Below are positions 19,087 to 27,782 of a stretch of DNA of 27,782 bases, one piece after another; position 1 is the stretch's first letter, and the number at the start of each line of letters is the position of its first letter. Location of the stretch: NCBI GenBank assembly GCA_016291895.1, contig JAEEZO010000026.1:1-27782 (forward strand). The letters are read 5' to 3'. The translations under genes were made by a program, and so were the position numbers. The notes beneath the pieces are model-generated. The model saw only the letters and a program-made list of their open reading frames with translations, searched no databases and was not told where the DNA came from. This DNA comes from Caryophanales bacterium (GTDB taxonomy: Bacteria > Bacillota_I > Bacilli_A > RF39 > UBA660).

Positions 19087-19983
19087 ATGAATGATTATAA
19101 ACAAAAAGAAAGAGAAGAATTATTAATATCAAGAGGATATAACTATCAAGATGTAATAGAATTATGTAGTTTTGATGTTAACAATCTAGAATTAATTGTT
19201 CAAAGAATATTTGATGACATTAAAAAAGATTGTAAGATGGTTAGTAATCCTATTAGTATTTTTATTGGTGGTCAACCTGGAAGTGGTAAAAGTGTTGAAG
19301 CTTATCGAATTAAAAATAATTTTAATGATGATGGTATTATTGTCATTAATTTAGATAATTATCGTTCATACCATCCTAATTATCAAAAAATGGAAGAATT
19401 AATAAAAAAACATTGGAAAGGAAGATTAGAAACAAACAATGATTCAATGGGTAATGATATTGCAGATTTTACTCATTACTTCGCTAGTGTTGTATCTGAT
19501 AAAATCTTTAAGTTATCAAGTAAAATTGTTGATAATAAAGGTTATAATATTATTTTTGATTGGGGTATGAGACTTCCTCTTGAACCTTTATCAATAATGG
19601 AAGAATTATATGAAAAAGGATATACCATTAATGTTAAATTTGTTGTTGTTTATGAAAAGATAAGTAGAGAAGCTTGTAACTTAAGAGCAATGTATAAAAA
19701 TCAACATATTTTAAGAAAAGTATGTGATGATTTTCATGATTTGTGTGTTAATTCTCTACCTGATAGTGCTAAAACAATTTATAGTGTTGGAACAGATAAA
19801 GGTATTATCAATGATTTTTCTTTAATCGATCGTAATGATAAAGTGATTTGGGATAAAAATAGTAATGAAGATATCAAAGATGTTTATTATAATTATCTTC
19901 ATAATGATATCTATAATAATTATGAGAATAATCTTGATGATGTTATAATCATATGTAGTCTTGAAAGTAAAGGTTTTTTATAA
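19087..19983 (+). CDS. Zeta-toxin-like kinase without a visible antitoxin
   Basis: A 298-residue P-loop protein. Walker A is G61-GQPGSGKS69, followed by LD90-N-Y-R93-SYH96-PNY, the Asp-x-x-Arg-x-x-His-Pro signature of zeta/PezT toxins, and by a helix-rich part with DFTHYFASVVSDKIF and IIFDWGMRLP. Family members phosphorylate UDP-N-acetylglucosamine and so block wall synthesis at MurA. The usual short epsilon or PezA antitoxin gene is absent: the gene has its own promoter and the upstream gene is a membrane protein. It may be a housekeeping or chromosomal zeta-fold kinase with another substrate. The C-terminal about 80 residues are unassigned. Confidence 0.75.
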   Translation: MNDYKQKEREELLISRGYNYQDVIELCSFDVNNLELIVQRIFDDIKKDCKMVSNPISIFIGGQPGSGKSVEAYRIKNNFNDDGIIVINLDNYRSYHPNYQKMEELIKKHWKGRLETNNDSMGNDIADFTHYFASVVSDKIFKLSSKIVDNKGYNIIFDWGMRLPLEPLSIMEELYEKGYTINVKFVVVYEKISREACNLRAMYKNQHILRKVCDDFHDLCVNSLPDSAKTIYSVGTDKGIINDFSLIDRNDKVIWDKNSNEDIKDVYYNYLHNDIYNNYENNLDDVIIICSLESKGFL

Positions 19984-21806: not shown

Positions 21807-23195
21807 ATGAGATTATATAATACTTTAACAAGAACAGTTGAAGAATTTAAACCTATGAATGCGAATGTTGTTAAAATGTATACTTGTGGACCAACGGTAT
21901 ATCATTTTGCGCACATAGGAAACTTAAGAAGTTATATTCAAGAAGATATTTTAGAGAAATATTTAAGATATATTGGTTATCGTGTTGATCGTGTAATGAA
22001 TATAACAGATGTTGGTCATTTGACAAGTGATGGCGACACTGGTACAGATAAAATGGTAAATAGTGCCAAAAAAGAACATAAATCTGTACTTGATATTGCT
22101 AAATACTATACAGAGTGTTTCTTCAATGATTGTTGTAAGTTAAATATTCGTAAGCCAGATACAGTTGTACCCGCAACTAGTTTAATTGATCGTTATATTA
22201 TGATGATTGAAAAATTAATTAATGATGGTTATGCCTATCCAAGTGGAGGTAATATTTATTTTGATACTTCTAAATTAAAAGATTATTATGTATTAACTAA
22301 TCATAAAGAAGATGATTTAATGGTTGGGGTACGTGACGATGTAACAGAAGATACTAATAAACGTAATAAAGCAGACTTTGTTTTATGGTTTACTAAATCA
22401 AAATTTGAAGATCAAGAATTAAAATGGGATTCACCATGGGGAGTAGGTTATCCTGGTTGGCATATAGAATGTTCTGGTATCTCTACTAAATACCTAGGAG
22501 AATACCTTGATATTCACTGTGGAGGAGTAGATAATATTTTCCCTCATCACACTAATGAAATCGCTCAATCTGAGGCTTTCTTAGGCCATAAATGGTGTAA
22601 TTATTGGTTTCATGTAGAACACTTGAATGACAAAAATGGTAAAATGAGTAAAAGTAAAGGTGATATCTTAACCGTTGATACTTTAATAAACAAAGGATAT
22701 AATCCTTTATCATATCGTTATTTTGTTTTATCTAGTCATTATCAAAAACCACTTGAATTTAGTTATGAGAATTTAGATGGAGCCGAAAACGCTTATTTAA
22801 AACTAAAATCAAGAATCGCTAAGTTAAGTAATGATGGTAATATAGATCAAGAAAATTATGATTTATTTAATAATCAATTCTTAAAAGCAATGGATGATAA
22901 TTTAAATACATCACTAGCGTTAACAGTAATCTATGATCTATTAAAAAGTGATACAAATGATTTCACTAAGAGATTATTAATAGAAGACTTTGATAGTGTA
23001 CTTTCACTAGATCTTTTAAAAGAAGAAGAGAAAAAAGAAGTTGATGAAGAATACATTAATAAGAAGATCGAAGAAAGACGTATTGCTAAAACTAATAAAG
23101 ACTTTATGCTTGCAGATAAGATTAGAGATGAATTATTACAAGAAGGAATTAAACTTCTTGATACAAGAGAAGGAACTACATATGAGATTATGTAG
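21807..23195 (+). CDS. cysS: Cysteinyl-tRNA synthetase
   Basis: CysRS loads cysteine onto tRNA-Cys. The 462-residue class I enzyme has the HIGH-type motif H36-I-G-N39 and the K279-M-S-K-S283 loop. Zinc ligands that select cysteine are visible: C27 (TCGPTVY), Cys in HIECSGIS and His/Glu in PHHTNEIAQSE. The start at 21807 is used because GGAGG (21798-21802) precedes it and it aligns with the family N-terminus MRLYNT. The in-frame ATG at 21741 lies within the upstream terminator. Many Bacillota control this gene with a T-box, but the leader here leaves no room for one. Confidence 0.97.
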   Translation: MRLYNTLTRTVEEFKPMNANVVKMYTCGPTVYHFAHIGNLRSYIQEDILEKYLRYIGYRVDRVMNITDVGHLTSDGDTGTDKMVNSAKKEHKSVLDIAKYYTECFFNDCCKLNIRKPDTVVPATSLIDRYIMMIEKLINDGYAYPSGGNIYFDTSKLKDYYVLTNHKEDDLMVGVRDDVTEDTNKRNKADFVLWFTKSKFEDQELKWDSPWGVGYPGWHIECSGISTKYLGEYLDIHCGGVDNIFPHHTNEIAQSEAFLGHKWCNYWFHVEHLNDKNGKMSKSKGDILTVDTLINKGYNPLSYRYFVLSSHYQKPLEFSYENLDGAENAYLKLKSRIAKLSNDGNIDQENYDLFNNQFLKAMDDNLNTSLALTVIYDLLKSDTNDFTKRLLIEDFDSVLSLDLLKEEEKKEVDEEYINKKIEERRIAKTNKDFMLADKIRDELLQEGIKLLDTREGTTYEIM

Positions 23196-23208
23196 TTCTC
23201 TCTTTTTT
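23167..23208 (+). terminator. Intrinsic terminator of cysS
   Basis: GAACTACAT (23173-23181), 8-nt loop, ATGTAGTTC (23190-23198), extended by GAGA (23167-23170) / TCTC (23199-23202) with an AG bulge, then T6. The last codons and stop (23193-23195) of cysS lie inside it. Confidence 0.85.
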
Positions 23209-23214
23209 ATTTTG

Positions 23215-23235
23215 TTATTAACATTTTGTTAAAAA
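23215..23235. promoter_or_regulatory. Upstream copy of the putative NrtR operator
   Basis: TTATTAACAT (23215-23224), T, TTGTTAAAAA (23226-23235). It differs at two positions from the perfect 21-bp copy at 23313-23333 and ends 2 nt before the -35 of the NAD operon. Confidence 0.6.
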
Positions 23236-23237
23236 CA

Positions 23238-23266
23238 TTGACAAAGTAGTAATTATGTAGTATATT
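23238..23266 (+). promoter_or_regulatory. Promoter of the NAD salvage operon
   Basis: Consensus TTGACA (23238-23243), 17-nt spacer, TATATT (23261-23266). The predicted start near 23273 gives a leader of about 72 nt, the longest in the window. The leader contains AGAGAG (23277-23282) / CTCTCT (23291-23296), which can pair around an 8-nt loop. Confidence 0.7.
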
Positions 23267-23312: not shown

Positions 23313-23333
23313 TTATTAACAATTTGTTAATAA
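23313..23333. promoter_or_regulatory. Downstream, perfect copy of the putative NrtR operator
   Basis: TTATTAACAA (23313-23322), T, TTGTTAATAA (23324-23333): a perfect 21-bp palindrome with one central base. It lies about 40-60 nt after the predicted transcription start and touches the ribosome-binding site GAGGAGG (23334-23340). Its centre is 98 bp from that of the upstream copy. Confidence 0.7.
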
Positions 23334-23344
23334 GAGGAGGTTTT

Positions 23345-24070
23345 ATGAAAAGTTTACAAGTTGTTACACCACATATGGAATGCTTATTTAATTGCCCATT
23401 TTGTATTGCAAAAGCTCATAATCACGAAAACAATTTTATTGATTATTACCACAAGAAAAAAGAATTATGGCAAAAAAATTTTATTAACGTATTAAAAGAA
23501 AATCCTGATTTAGGTTATGTTGTTATTACTGGAACAAATGAACCTATGCAATCACCAGAGTGTGTACTTGATATCATTAATTTAACAAGAAAGTATCGAC
23601 CTGATATCAAAATTGAAATTCAAACTCGTTGGTACATAGAAAATGATTTATATAACAAATTAGATGTTGTTTGCTACAGTATTTCTAATTATTTCTACTT
23701 AGACAAGATTAAGCCAATGGGTAAAATTAGTCGATATGTCTTTATTTTAACAGATTCTTTTAACAATAAAACTTTACAAGATATTTTAGATATCATTCCA
23801 AAAGAAGTAACACAATTAACATTTAAAACATTACAAAATAGTATTACAAATGATACACCAATTGATGAATGGATTAATAAACATCGAATTGATCCTGAAA
23901 CCCTTAATAATTTAGAAAAAGATATTAAAACTTATCAAGGAGACTTATCTATTAGATTAGACAAGGATTGTATGACAGCAGATAATAGATATAAAGTCTT
24001 TAGAGAAGATGGAGATATCTATAATGACTGGGATGAACTTCCCAAAGAAAAATCAATGATAAAGAAATAG
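23345..24070 (+). CDS. Radical SAM protein heading the NAD salvage operon
   Basis: A 241-residue radical S-adenosylmethionine protein. C13-x3-C17-x2-C20 (ECLFNCPFC) is the canonical 4Fe-4S/SAM cluster motif, and G63-T-N-E66-P67 matches the GGE-type loop that holds SAM. The middle has the strand-helix alternation of the radical SAM barrel, without a SPASM extension. A fourth conserved-looking Cys sits near the C-terminus (RLDKDCMTADNRY). Its reaction is unknown. It is 13 nt before the nicotinamidase gene and shares the operon's promoter and operators, suggesting a role in nicotinamide/NAD metabolism, or an oxygen-sensitive step co-regulated with NAD. The ATG at 23345 follows GAGGAGG. Confidence 0.85.
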   Translation: MKSLQVVTPHMECLFNCPFCIAKAHNHENNFIDYYHKKKELWQKNFINVLKENPDLGYVVITGTNEPMQSPECVLDIINLTRKYRPDIKIEIQTRWYIENDLYNKLDVVCYSISNYFYLDKIKPMGKISRYVFILTDSFNNKTLQDILDIIPKEVTQLTFKTLQNSITNDTPIDEWINKHRIDPETLNNLEKDIKTYQGDLSIRLDKDCMTADNRYKVFREDGDIYNDWDELPKEKSMIKK

Positions 24071-24083
24071 AAAGGAGATTATT

Positions 24084-24659
24084 ATGAAAAGAATGGTATT
24101 TGTTGTTGATATGATTAATGGATTTTGCAAGAGAGGCCCTCTTGCAAATCCAAAAGCTATGGAGATGGTTCCATTATTGCATGACTTTTTAGAAAACTTT
24201 GATGGTGAAAAAATAGAAGCTAGGGATGCGCATACAGAAGATTCAGTAGAATTCTTAATATATCCTATTCATGCTTTAAAAGATGACTATGAAAGTGAAG
24301 GTATTGATGAATTAAAAGATGTTTTATCTGGAGCTAAAATCTTTTATAAAAACTCTACTGATTTAACCGTTATTCCAGGTTTTATCGAATATATTCTTAA
24401 AGAAAAACCAGATGAAATAACAATCACTGGTTGTTGTACAGATATTTGTATTATGCAATATGCCTTGACACTAAAAGCCCTATTTAATCAATATAATATA
24501 GCTTGTGATATAATAATATATGACAACTTAGTTGATACTTATGATAGCCCTGACCATAATAGAAATTATTATCAAGAAGCAGCTCTTAATTTAATGAGAA
24601 ATGCAGGTATTATTGTTAAACATTATGAACAAAATAAAGTTATAAAGAAGGTGAATTAA
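24084..24659 (+). CDS. pncA: Nicotinamidase (isochorismatase-like cysteine hydrolase)
   Basis: It hydrolyses nicotinamide to nicotinate and ammonia, the entry to the Preiss-Handler salvage route. The 191-residue protein has the likely triad D9 (VVDMINGF), K89 (FYKNSTD) and C118 (TGCCTDIC). The metal site reads D48-A-H50...E56...H63, the Asp-His-Glu-His arrangement of the streptococcal nicotinamidases, rather than the D-x-H-x3-H of the E. coli/mycobacterial type. Position directly before pncB (1-nt gap) supports the assignment; other amidohydrolases of the superfamily are less likely. AAAGGAG precedes the ATG. Confidence 0.9.
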   Translation: MKRMVFVVDMINGFCKRGPLANPKAMEMVPLLHDFLENFDGEKIEARDAHTEDSVEFLIYPIHALKDDYESEGIDELKDVLSGAKIFYKNSTDLTVIPGFIEYILKEKPDEITITGCCTDICIMQYALTLKALFNQYNIACDIIIYDNLVDTYDSPDHNRNYYQEAALNLMRNAGIIVKHYEQNKVIKKVN

Positions 24660-24660
24660 G

Positions 24661-26115
24661 ATGAAAAATAATGAAACAATGATTGTTGATATGTATGAAT
24701 TACCTATGAGTCAAACATACTTTGATACGGGAGATAAAGATACTTATGTATATTTTGATGTCTTCTTTAGAAAGAATCCTTTTAATGGTGGTTACACTGT
24801 ATCAGGGGGACTTGATAACATTATTGATTTTATTAATAATTTTCAATATACAGATTCTGATATTGAATATTTAAGAAGTTTAAATAAATATAGTGAAGAA
24901 TTCTTAAGTCAGTTAAAAGGAACAAGATTTACCGGAGACTTATATATGGTTCCTGATGGAACAATCGTTTTCCCTAATGAACCAGTTTTGACTGTAAGAG
25001 CGAAAACAATGGAAGCACAACTATTGGAAACGGCTTTATTACATCATTTTAATACAGGATCTCTTATTACTACAGCAGCTAAAAGAATAACTAATGAAGC
25101 AGGAGATGTTCCTGTTATTGAAGGAGATGATTCAGCATCTGTAATGGAATTTGGTGCTAGAAGATCCCTTAATCCAATGGAATCTGCTAAATATGGCTAT
25201 ATTGGTGGATGTGTTGGAACTTCACTTGTTAAAGCAGGAAAAGAATATAATATTCCTATTTTGGGAACGATGGCTCATTCTTTAGTAACGTTTTATGAGA
25301 ATGAAGAAACTGCTTTTAGAAACTTTGCTAAAAGTAATCCAAATGATTGTGTTTTCTTAGTTGATACATATGATACCTTAAGAGAAGGTGTTCCTAACGC
25401 TATTAAAGTTGCTAATGAATATTTAAAACCTAATAATATTAAATTTAAAGGAATAAGAATTGATAGTGGAGATCTTGCTTATTTATCTAAAGAAGCTAGA
25501 AAGATGCTTGATGAAGCAGGATATACTGATACCGGTATTTGCTTATCAAATGGTCTTAATGAATATACTATTGCGGAATTAAAGAAACAAGGAGCTAAAT
25601 TTAACTCTTTAGGAGTTGGTGATAATATTGCGCAACCTCTTGATCGTGTTGGTGGGGTTTATAAATTAGTGGCTATAGAAAGAGATAATCAAATAATTCC
25701 TCGTATTAAAGTAAGTAATGATAGTATTAAAACGATTAATCCTGGTTATAAAAAATTATATCGTTTCTATGACAAAGATACAGGATATGCTTTAGGTGAT
25801 GTTGTTGCTTTATATGATGAAATAATTGATAAAGATAAATATACTTTAATTCATCCAATTGATACATGGAAAACAAAAGAAATAATTAATTATGTTGTTC
25901 GTGAATTACAAGTACCAATCTTTAAAGGAGGAACTCTTGTTTATCAAGAACCAACTGTTACTGAAAAAAGAGATTATTGTAATAAAGAGTTTAAAACATT
26001 ATATCCAGAGATTACAAGACTTTCTAATCCTCATGAATATTATGTTGATTTATCAAAAGAATTATTAGATTTAAAAAATAAAATGATTAATGAACATCGA
26101 GAAAGGAATAATTAA
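24661..26115 (+). CDS. pncB: Nicotinate phosphoribosyltransferase
   Basis: It joins nicotinate and PRPP to form nicotinate mononucleotide, with ATP hydrolysis. The 484-residue protein has DTGDKDTYVYFDVFFRKNPFNGGYTVSGGL at the N-terminus, G202-T-M-A-H206-S, where His206 is a candidate for the phosphorylated residue, the PRPP region VDTYDTLREGVPNAI, and RIDSGDLAYLS. It belongs to the longer Gram-positive group. It is separated from pncA by one base and from nadE by two, so all are translated from one message. Confidence 0.95.
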   Translation: MKNNETMIVDMYELPMSQTYFDTGDKDTYVYFDVFFRKNPFNGGYTVSGGLDNIIDFINNFQYTDSDIEYLRSLNKYSEEFLSQLKGTRFTGDLYMVPDGTIVFPNEPVLTVRAKTMEAQLLETALLHHFNTGSLITTAAKRITNEAGDVPVIEGDDSASVMEFGARRSLNPMESAKYGYIGGCVGTSLVKAGKEYNIPILGTMAHSLVTFYENEETAFRNFAKSNPNDCVFLVDTYDTLREGVPNAIKVANEYLKPNNIKFKGIRIDSGDLAYLSKEARKMLDEAGYTDTGICLSNGLNEYTIAELKKQGAKFNSLGVGDNIAQPLDRVGGVYKLVAIERDNQIIPRIKVSNDSIKTINPGYKKLYRFYDKDTGYALGDVVALYDEIIDKDKYTLIHPIDTWKTKEIINYVVRELQVPIFKGGTLVYQEPTVTEKRDYCNKEFKTLYPEITRLSNPHEYYVDLSKELLDLKNKMINEHRERNN

Positions 26116-26117
26116 TT

Positions 26118-26858
26118 ATGTTTAATGCGAATGAAGAAGTAAATAAAATATGTGAATTTGTAAGAGATTATTATCAAAAAAGTAATTTAACAGGAGCAGT
26201 TGTTGGAATAAGTGGTGGCAAAGATAGTGCAGTAGTTGCTGCTCTTCTTGTAAAAGCCTTAGGTCCAGAAAATGTTGTTGGTGTAGCCTTACCATGTCAC
26301 TCTAAAGACGAAGACTTAAATGATGCTATTATGTTAAGCGAATATTATGGCTTTAAACTAATTAAACTTGATTTAACAAGTACATATGATAGTTTTGTTA
26401 ATGAAGTAGAAAATGTTACGGGAAGTAATGATTATGATAACGCTAATATTAATTTAAAACCAAGATTACGTATGAGTAGTTTATATTATGTAGCTAGTAT
26501 GTTATCAACAAATGGTAAACGCTTTATTGTAGCAGGTACAAGCAATAAGAGTGAATTATTTGTAGGATACTTCACCAAAGGTGGAGATTCAACTCATGAC
26601 TTTGAAGTAATTAGTGATTTCACAGTATCTGAAGTAATAAAGATAGGAGAAGAATTAAAAGTACCAGAAAAAGTTCTTTATAAGGCCCCTTCTGATGGAT
26701 TATCAGGTAAAACAGATGAAGATAACTTAGGAGTTACTTATCAAGCTATTGAAGATTATATTTATGGAAAAGAACTTGATTCTGAAACACAAGCTAAAAT
26801 AAAAAAATTACATGATAATAATCAACATAAATTTAATATGCCAGCATATCGTAGGTGA
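26118..26858 (+). CDS. nadE: NH3-dependent NAD+ synthetase
   Basis: It amidates nicotinate adenine dinucleotide to NAD+ with ATP. The 246-residue protein has the ATP pyrophosphatase loop I-S32-G-G-K-D-S37, AGTSNKSELFVGYFTKGGDSTHDFEVISD and the C-terminal PSDGLSGKTDEDNLGVTY. The glutaminase (nitrilase) domain of the long form is absent, so it uses free ammonia, which nicotinamidase supplies in part. The missing step between PncB and this enzyme, NadD, is not in the window. It ends with TGA. Confidence 0.96.
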   Translation: MFNANEEVNKICEFVRDYYQKSNLTGAVVGISGGKDSAVVAALLVKALGPENVVGVALPCHSKDEDLNDAIMLSEYYGFKLIKLDLTSTYDSFVNEVENVTGSNDYDNANINLKPRLRMSSLYYVASMLSTNGKRFIVAGTSNKSELFVGYFTKGGDSTHDFEVISDFTVSEVIKIGEELKVPEKVLYKAPSDGLSGKTDEDNLGVTYQAIEDYIYGKELDSETQAKIKKLHDNNQHKFNMPAYRR

Positions 26859-26861
26859 GCT

Positions 26862-27686
26862 ATGTATTCGAGTGAAGAAGAATTCTTAGCGCATTATGAT
26901 CCTAATAAATATGAAAGATTATCAATGTCTACTGATATCTTAATATTTAGTGTATCGGATAAAGAAAAGAATAATTATCGTAAAAGTAATGAAAAGGTAA
27001 TGAGTATCTTACTTGTTAAAAGAGATAATTATCCATATAAGGATAGATGGTGTCTTCCTGGAGGATTCTTAGATCCTAAAAAAGAAACCTTATTGGATTC
27101 TGCTAAGAGAGTATTAAAAAATGAAACAAACTTAGAAGATATTTATTTAGAACAATTATATACTTTTGATTGTTTAAATAGAGATCCTAGAATGCGTGTA
27201 TTATCAACTACTTTTATGGCCTTAATTGATAAAAATGAACTATTAAGTATGATTAATGAAAAATCAAGTTGGTTTAATATTGAAAATATTGATAATAAAG
27301 ACAATTTAGTAACAATAACACTAAGTAATGGAATTGATACATTAAAGTTTTCAGTTCGTAAAACCTTAATTAGTAAAACAACTAATAACTATGAATATCA
27401 TAAAGAAAAGAGTATTCTTGCTTTTGACCATGAAAGTGTTATTGTTTGTGGAATCGATCGAATTAGAAATAAAATAAGAGATACAGATATTATCTTTAAT
27501 TTATTACCTAAGTATTTTACTTTAGGTGATGTTCAAAGAATCTATGAAACAATTCTTAATAAGAAATTATTAGATCCTGCATTTAGAAGAATAATCAAAG
27601 ATAAAGTAATAAAAACAGATATAATTAAAAGTGATGGAGGACATCGACCATCAATTATGTATAAATATAAGGAGAATATAAAATAA
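26862..27686 (+). CDS. nrtR: NrtR-type transcriptional regulator (Nudix sensor plus winged helix)
   Basis: A 274-residue fusion of an N-terminal Nudix domain (about 20-160) and a C-terminal winged helix (about 195-270, LLPKYFTLGDVQRIYETILNKKLLDPAFRRIIKDKV). This is the layout of NrtR, which represses NAD genes and is released by ADP-ribose. The Nudix box is degraded: where active enzymes have REU-x-EE-x-GU, it reads R-V-L-K-N-E-T-N-L, losing two catalytic acids and the Gly, so it should bind but not hydrolyse. It is the fifth gene of the operon and the likely ligand of the two 21-bp palindromes upstream of the operon. Confidence 0.9.
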   Translation: MYSSEEEFLAHYDPNKYERLSMSTDILIFSVSDKEKNNYRKSNEKVMSILLVKRDNYPYKDRWCLPGGFLDPKKETLLDSAKRVLKNETNLEDIYLEQLYTFDCLNRDPRMRVLSTTFMALIDKNELLSMINEKSSWFNIENIDNKDNLVTITLSNGIDTLKFSVRKTLISKTTNNYEYHKEKSILAFDHESVIVCGIDRIRNKIRDTDIIFNLLPKYFTLGDVQRIYETILNKKLLDPAFRRIIKDKVIKTDIIKSDGGHRPSIMYKYKENIK

Positions 27687-27782
27687 TGGAGCTATTTGAT
27701 ATTGTTGATAAAGATCGTAAACCTTTAGGATACACTAAAGAAAGACATGAAGAGTTACTTGATAACGAATATAATGTTGGTG
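27686..27782 (+). CDS. Nudix hydrolase / IPP-isomerase-like protein, N-terminal fragment
   Basis: Starts at ATG 27686, sharing a base with the nrtR stop (TAATG), with AGGAG upstream at about 27669, and runs off the window. The 32 visible residues begin MELFDIVDKDRKPLGYTKERHE, the typical N-terminus of YfcD/isopentenyl-diphosphate-isomerase-like Nudix proteins (ELxDIVDxxxxPLG). The Nudix box itself is beyond the edge, so neither activity nor substrate can be told. As the sixth gene of the NAD operon it might remove a nucleotide by-product, but that is inference. Confidence 0.7.
   Translation, partial: MELFDIVDKDRKPLGYTKERHEELLDNEYNVG

Follow-up and report, generated by a model that had tools for sequence, protein, structure and literature searches.

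Small radical SAM proteins encoded among NAD genes in NrtR-linked operons, with a possible role in NAD recycling or repair

Relatives of a short radical S-adenosylmethionine (SAM) protein were found to be encoded among nicotinamide adenine dinucleotide (NAD) genes in all ten of the carrier genomes that we found, an association that exceeds chance. The protein comes from a 27,782-nucleotide (nt) stretch of a Caryophanales bacterium (GenBank assembly GCA_016291895.1, contig JAEEZO010000026.1, positions 1 to 27,782 of the forward strand; hereafter the window), where its gene (23345..24070, + strand; 241 residues) is the first of the run radical SAM-pncA-pncB-nadE-nrtR. These genes, all on the + strand, fill the last 4.4 kb of the window and are separated by 13, 1, 2, and 3 nt. 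From this linkage we infer, with slightly less than even confidence, a minimal enzyme of the radical SAM class, dedicated to the NAD economy, which would carry out a nucleotide-directed radical step on a compound of the NAD pathway, likely for recycling or repair. The family and its combination with the NAD operon appear to be undescribed, while the enzyme class and the operon type are each known. No account of a radical SAM gene in an NAD operon was found among the matches listed for the open-access literature.

To our knowledge, no radical SAM enzyme takes part in any known step of NAD synthesis or salvage, pathways that are usually held to be well mapped. A family whose examined contexts are all NAD operons, preceded by a predicted NrtR operator, points to a missing radical step. 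Such a step is directly testable, since it involves one enzyme, few candidate substrates, and an assay for the release of 5'-deoxyadenosine.

Results

Carrier genomes were collected from three samples: 385 genomes from the order of the genome that holds locus L001, in which 8 matched; 386 genomes from the family of that genome, with 10 profile matches (9 members and one different protein, in G348); and 395 genomes of the class, in which 3 matched (2 already known and 1 weak). The union of these samples comprises the 10 carriers, which are draft genomes of uncultured bacteria, 0.8–1.4 Mb in size and with completeness unstated. The typical carrier order is pncA, pncB, an ADP-ribose pyrophosphatase-like gene, nadE, the radical SAM gene, a phosphoribosyl pyrophosphate synthase-like gene, nadD, cinA, nrtR, and nadK. 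The position of the radical SAM gene was observed to vary: in 7 of the 10 carriers it stands after a nadE-type gene and in two after nadD, and it comes first in G108, as it does in the window. It overlaps the upstream gene by 4 nt in two carriers, is split into two open reading frames (ORFs) in G064, and is cut by the contig end in G495. Within the family sample, PncB was detected in 109 of 386 genomes, all 9 carriers found there among them, and the radical SAM gene in none of the 277 others (Fisher 8.9e-6). A preliminary description of the window had proposed that the protein works with NAD salvage, and this is supported by the genomic contexts and by an operator-like palindrome that recurs upstream. 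Homologues scattered among unrelated operons, the outcome that the same description had named as contrary, were looked for and not seen, with 10/10 of the carriers found being NAD-linked.

The carriers probably depend on salvaged niacin, because NadA was found in 0/10 of them (compared with 12/14 control genomes). NAD operons without any radical SAM gene otherwise look alike, so the radical SAM step would be an addition to NAD synthesis and not a replacement for part of it.

Directly upstream of the radical SAM gene, the window holds a perfect 21-bp palindrome, TTATTAACAA-T-TTGTTAATAA (23313..23333), which is a predicted NrtR operator and recurs upstream of NAD operons. A further operator-like palindrome, with 2 mismatches relative to the perfect copy, is located at 23215..23235. 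Between them lies a promoter-like TTGACA-17-TATATT sequence (23238..23266, + strand; 11/12 matches), the best in the region, and a terminator-like hairpin after cysS (23172..23199, + strand; an 11-pair stem followed by a T run) parts the operon from the upstream gene. Because this hairpin and the promoter-like site both precede the radical SAM gene, the NAD transcript most likely has that gene at its head; the ATG start codon of the gene has AGGAGG ahead of it. Terminator-like sites numbered 4 in the region versus 0.8 in shuffles, and the promoter scan overall gave no excess above shuffles (31 vs 33.6).

The palindrome scan covered the window and 9 of the 10 carrier loci; G441 was excluded, since its contig does not reach the start of the operon. 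With 3 or fewer mismatches allowed, 18 matches were observed in 1,810 bp of sequence preceding the operons versus 3 in the other 143,395 bp; the consensus was drawn from the window itself, which supplies 2 of the 18. A first-order Markov control predicted 0.005 upstream matches. Two of the three matches elsewhere are upstream of nrtR, and the third falls where pncA begins, after the radical SAM gene, in G108. Nine of the ten scanned loci had a match, while G157 has just 4–5-mismatch sites. Judging from gene content, NrtR would bind this palindrome, which would place the radical SAM gene under the same repressor as the NAD genes. According to published accounts, NrtR operators are palindromes that differ by lineage (PMC6800001), and the Streptococcus NrtR is released by ADP-ribose (PMC12735969). 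The window resembles the regulons in those accounts in that NrtR adjoins, and probably controls, NAD salvage genes and in its palindromic operators (PMC12735969, PMC6800001). It differs in that its operator is unlike the mycobacterial one (PMC6800001) and in its radical SAM gene, of which the passages and listings consulted showed no counterpart.

Searching 5.8 billion proteins with one sequence as query yielded 468 candidates, of which 191 were relatives at E ≤ 0.001. With a 34-sequence profile, 231 relatives were obtained at E ≤ 0.01 among 2,279. When the profile was built from 12 divergent members, 209 of 2,186 passed E ≤ 1, and the last of the 120 matches listed was still at 2.2e-103. Read from these counts, the relatives seem to form a discrete family of about 200–230 protein clusters, for which the genomic contexts cover the 10 carriers plus the window. 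The CX3CX2C cluster motif that had been noted before is present as CLFNCPFC at residues 13–20. Residues C13, C17, C20, T62, G63, P67, D206, R215, Y216, R220, and Y226 are invariant in 161 members. Outside the cluster motif only two cysteines are conserved, C209 (160/161), the sole one of the C-terminal part, and C73 (147/161). A SPASM-like cysteine set is absent, in agreement with the earlier statement that the protein has no SPASM domain. The SAM-binding motif of radical SAM enzymes usually has the form GGEP; the family has TGTNEP at this position, with T62, G63, and P67 kept in 161/161 members and E66 in 160/161. The Pfam Radical_SAM model (PF04055) scored the window protein at 25.1 bits (E 2.3e-5), below the cutoff of 29.5, and a relative in G221 passes it with 30 bits. 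Placement in a well-known subgroup, which had also been named as an outcome that would speak against the proposal, was looked for, and no NCBIfam family reached its cutoff for the window protein. Sequence searches of the PDB returned nothing meaningful.

The AlphaFold2 model of the protein (predicted local distance difference test, pLDDT, 85.8) matched a partial TIM-barrel fold, and the top 20 Foldseek rows and the best 50 VIA rows were all radical SAM enzymes by title. Viperins led the ranking, with SuiB, ChlB, and the PFL-activating enzyme also among the matches. The likeness to viperin (SAM-dependent nucleotide dehydratase, SAND) proteins appears to extend to the fold over nearly the whole model, and it includes a single CX3CX2C motif without conserved cysteines that could hold a second cluster. 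However, identity to the model is 10–12%, neither NF038283 nor the PADLOC pVip profile matches the window protein, TGTNEP replaces the usual GGEP, and the window family sits in an NAD operon. Across the family, weak matches were observed to NF038283 in 4/34 members (best 0.0072) and to pVip in 2/34 (0.018). The commonest named match was TIGR04038, the TatD-associated radical SAM protein (33/34 members, best E 4.8e-8), but the window protein scores 15.1 bits against a cutoff of 129.7 and the match spans residues 12–94 only. Weak NrdG2 matches were found in 29/34 members. Unlike MoaA (GTP 3',8-cyclase), the family has one conserved C-terminal cysteine, so a second cluster is not expected. A BFVD fold search gave mostly generic phage radical SAM proteins, and viral spread of the family was set aside after a two-peptide-pattern scan of viral contigs gave 5 stretches, none of which was confirmed.

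Unexpectedly, radical SAM genes of other kinds were often observed in the NAD operons of sister genomes without the window family. We evaluated 63 genomes without the window family, a subset of 100 PncB genomes that lack the radical SAM gene. Sixty loci were fetched around pncB and three around NrtR genes, with 17 of 20 NrtR-gene loci dropped because no other NAD gene was nearby; L050, with no pncB in its stretch, was not scorable, leaving 62 scored loci. The CX3CX2C motif occurred in 13 of the 71 operon-internal unknown ORFs of at least 90 residues (in 11 loci), compared with 7 of 495 outside the operons of the same loci (Fisher 2.6e-8), an enrichment that is motif-based, was noticed after the fact, and comes from related and hence non-independent loci. 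Four of the seven outside ORFs adjoin an operon, one in L057 and three in a row in L096. Pfam Radical_SAM matched all ten proteins submitted (9 of the 13, plus L092 x265, which has a different cysteine spacing), with nine above the cutoff and L104 below it. Of ten proteins submitted to NCBIfam, none reached a cutoff among the matches listed, where the leading names were MoaA or viperin for several, MiaB-like for L064, and RlmN-like for L104. By eye, the G118 operon (L113) also holds a protein like that of L064. A model of a second radical SAM type had a pLDDT of 59, too low for a fold search. The 10 carriers of the window family had no other internal unknown ORF of at least 90 residues, save a 144-residue protein in L001, which is part of the reference set.

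Several recurrent arrangements were seen in these loci. Three consecutive radical SAM genes are located inside the NAD operon in L103 (3584–6248) and directly before it in L096 (5548–8224). In L057, L061, L076, and L098, PnuC, an NMNAT-like gene, a 117–126-residue protein (615–971 in L057 and 10451–10822 in L076), and a radical SAM gene stand in a row. The small protein of these four operons combines a variable leader with the conserved tail HYxHY...SSSCG...R..C, resembling a modified-peptide precursor; its L057 and L076 copies had no Pfam match. A cluster of 121–156-residue proteins occurs in the NAD stretch of 12 loci (L071, L072, L073, L076, L079, L088, L089, L090, L092, L094, L099, and L104), and the L079 copy had no Pfam match.

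Downstream of the radical SAM gene in the window, pncA (24084..24659, + strand) is a predicted nicotinamidase of the isochorismatase family, with PF00857 at 43.4 bits (cutoff 27); the nicotinamidase equivalog PRK11609 was not reached in NCBIfam (just 15.4 vs 174). It is followed by pncB, encoding nicotinate phosphoribosyltransferase (24661..26115, + strand; NF006695 at 564.8 bits, cutoff 469, and TIGR01513 above cutoff), and by nadE, encoding a short-form NAD synthase of 246 residues (26118..26858, + strand; TIGR00552 at 193.7 bits, cutoff 63.65, and PF02540). The nrtR gene (26862..27686, + strand) encodes a Nudix plus winged-helix regulator, with NUDIX PF00293 at 39.5 bits (cutoff 21.1) and NrtR_WHD PF21906 at 54.7 (cutoff 27); it scores below the cutoff of the NF050029 equivalog, an ADP-ribose-responsive repressor (152.6 vs 400 bits). 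A further ORF on the + strand begins at 27686, overlaps nrtR by 1 nt, and is truncated by the window end at 27782; its 32 residues inside the window had no Pfam match. Coordinates, lengths, and spacing, including the last gap of -1 nt, were recovered as first described. The description had also called the operon a complete nicotinamide salvage operon, which holds for pncA, pncB, and nadE of the Preiss-Handler set. A search of the window ORFs of at least 60 residues gave no match to NadD, making "complete" an overstatement; nadD was seen in the stretches of 7/10 carriers. The description had also listed a Nudix gene after nrtR, a putative label for the truncated ORF; nrtR itself encodes the Nudix-plus-winged-helix protein.

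Discussion

In the mechanism that we propose, C13, C17, and C20 would hold one [4Fe-4S] cluster at which SAM would be cleaved, and a hydrogen would be abstracted from a phosphorylated nucleotide-type substrate. Candidates for the latter are nicotinate mononucleotide, nicotinamide mononucleotide (NMN), nicotinate adenine dinucleotide, NAD(H), ADP-ribose, or an abnormal form. The C-terminal residues D206, C209, R215, Y216, R220, and Y226 may close the active site, contact anions, and donate a hydrogen or an electron. Regulation is predicted from the operators and the promoter, by which the enzyme would be made from the NrtR-linked NAD operon. Its most probable purpose would be to recycle or repair a derivative beyond the reach of the ordinary salvage enzymes, in bacteria seemingly unable to make NAD de novo. 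Repair or recycling appears likeliest because the operon neighbours are predicted to recycle ADP-ribose and NMN. Alternatively, the enzyme may make a modified pyridine nucleotide.

Some of the same observations would fit an enzyme acting on a free pyridine from host or diet, such as N-methylated nicotinate or nicotinamide, and freeing nicotinate or nicotinamide for PncA and PncB. Anaerobic niacin scavenging of this type agrees with the probable salvage dependence of carriers in which NadA was not found, with the location of the gene directly ahead of pncA in the window and in G108, and with its presence only alongside PncB in the family sample. We nevertheless consider it fairly unlikely: the gene follows a nadE-type gene, and is not beside pncA, in 7/10 carriers, the nearest folds are nucleotide-acting viperins, and PnuC (a nicotinamide riboside/NMN transporter) was recognised in only 1/10 carrier operons, in a search that did not extend to other transporters. 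Modification of a protein, peptide, or tRNA, for instance as the maturase or activase of an NAD-pathway enzyme, is suggested by SuiB, ChlB, and the PFL-activating enzyme among the fold matches, by the NrdG2 matches, and by the different radical SAM gene that follows a precursor-like protein in four other NAD operons. The missing SPASM-like cysteine set argues against it, as does inspection by eye of nine carrier loci, where no recurring small free-standing ORF was seen near family genes, no search of the genomes for glycyl radical enzymes having been made; this too we hold to be improbable.

The leading place of viperins in the fold ranking raises the prospect of a viperin-like enzyme, housed in the NAD operon, whose product would be a chain-terminating or inhibitory nucleotide with an antiphage or competitive role. 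We find this highly doubtful, as the viperin profile matches are weak even at their best and do not include the window protein, the viral contig scan confirmed no relative, and the recognised neighbours are NAD genes, no screen of the neighbours for defence genes having been made. The NAD operon could also be a permissive landing site, with the function of the radical SAM protein unrelated to NAD and the need for it only tracking the NrtR signal. Accessory ORFs are indeed numerous in these operons, as the 71 internal unknown ORFs of the 62 scored loci indicate, but the gene is in the operon in every carrier found though its position changes, and ORFs with a radical SAM motif are over-represented inside operons; a landing site therefore seems quite unlikely.

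Beyond the enzyme dedicated to the NAD economy, radical SAM genes of other types are over-represented in the same operons, which suggests a need that may be shared generally among these apparently niacin-dependent small-genome bacteria. More tentatively, and with more doubt than belief, we suggest that the NrtR-linked NAD operon of this bacterial group may recruit radical SAM enzymes of several different kinds. Jointly, these would form an undescribed radical branch of NAD metabolism, serving either anaerobic repair or recycling of pyridine nucleotides or the production of a new cofactor derived from NAD or a peptide.

Additional observations

Two weak matches were kept out of the carrier count. 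The G348 match (1.6e-9) is a 400-residue protein near an NrtR-like gene; in this locus (L030, 3611–7106) the different radical SAM protein comes after the NrtR-like gene and a 180-residue ORF and before two similar 175-residue proteins, the first of which is dCTP deaminase-like by Pfam. The G811 match (7.4e-8) is a 214-residue protein beside a kinase-like gene; the locus (L112, 5807–7280) holds this weak family relative (33% over 97 residues) 1 nt from what appears by eye to be a pyridoxine kinase-like gene. The NAD(P)HX dehydratase family, PF01256, was found in 14/14 control genomes and in only 1/20 of the carriers plus non-carriers. The idea of the radical SAM protein as a replacement for NAD(P)HX repair was dropped as uninformative, with PF01256 not found in 9/10 carriers and in 10/10 non-carriers. 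Elsewhere in the window, at 19087–19983, a gene with a Zeta_toxin domain (PF06414) was identified at 94.9 bits.

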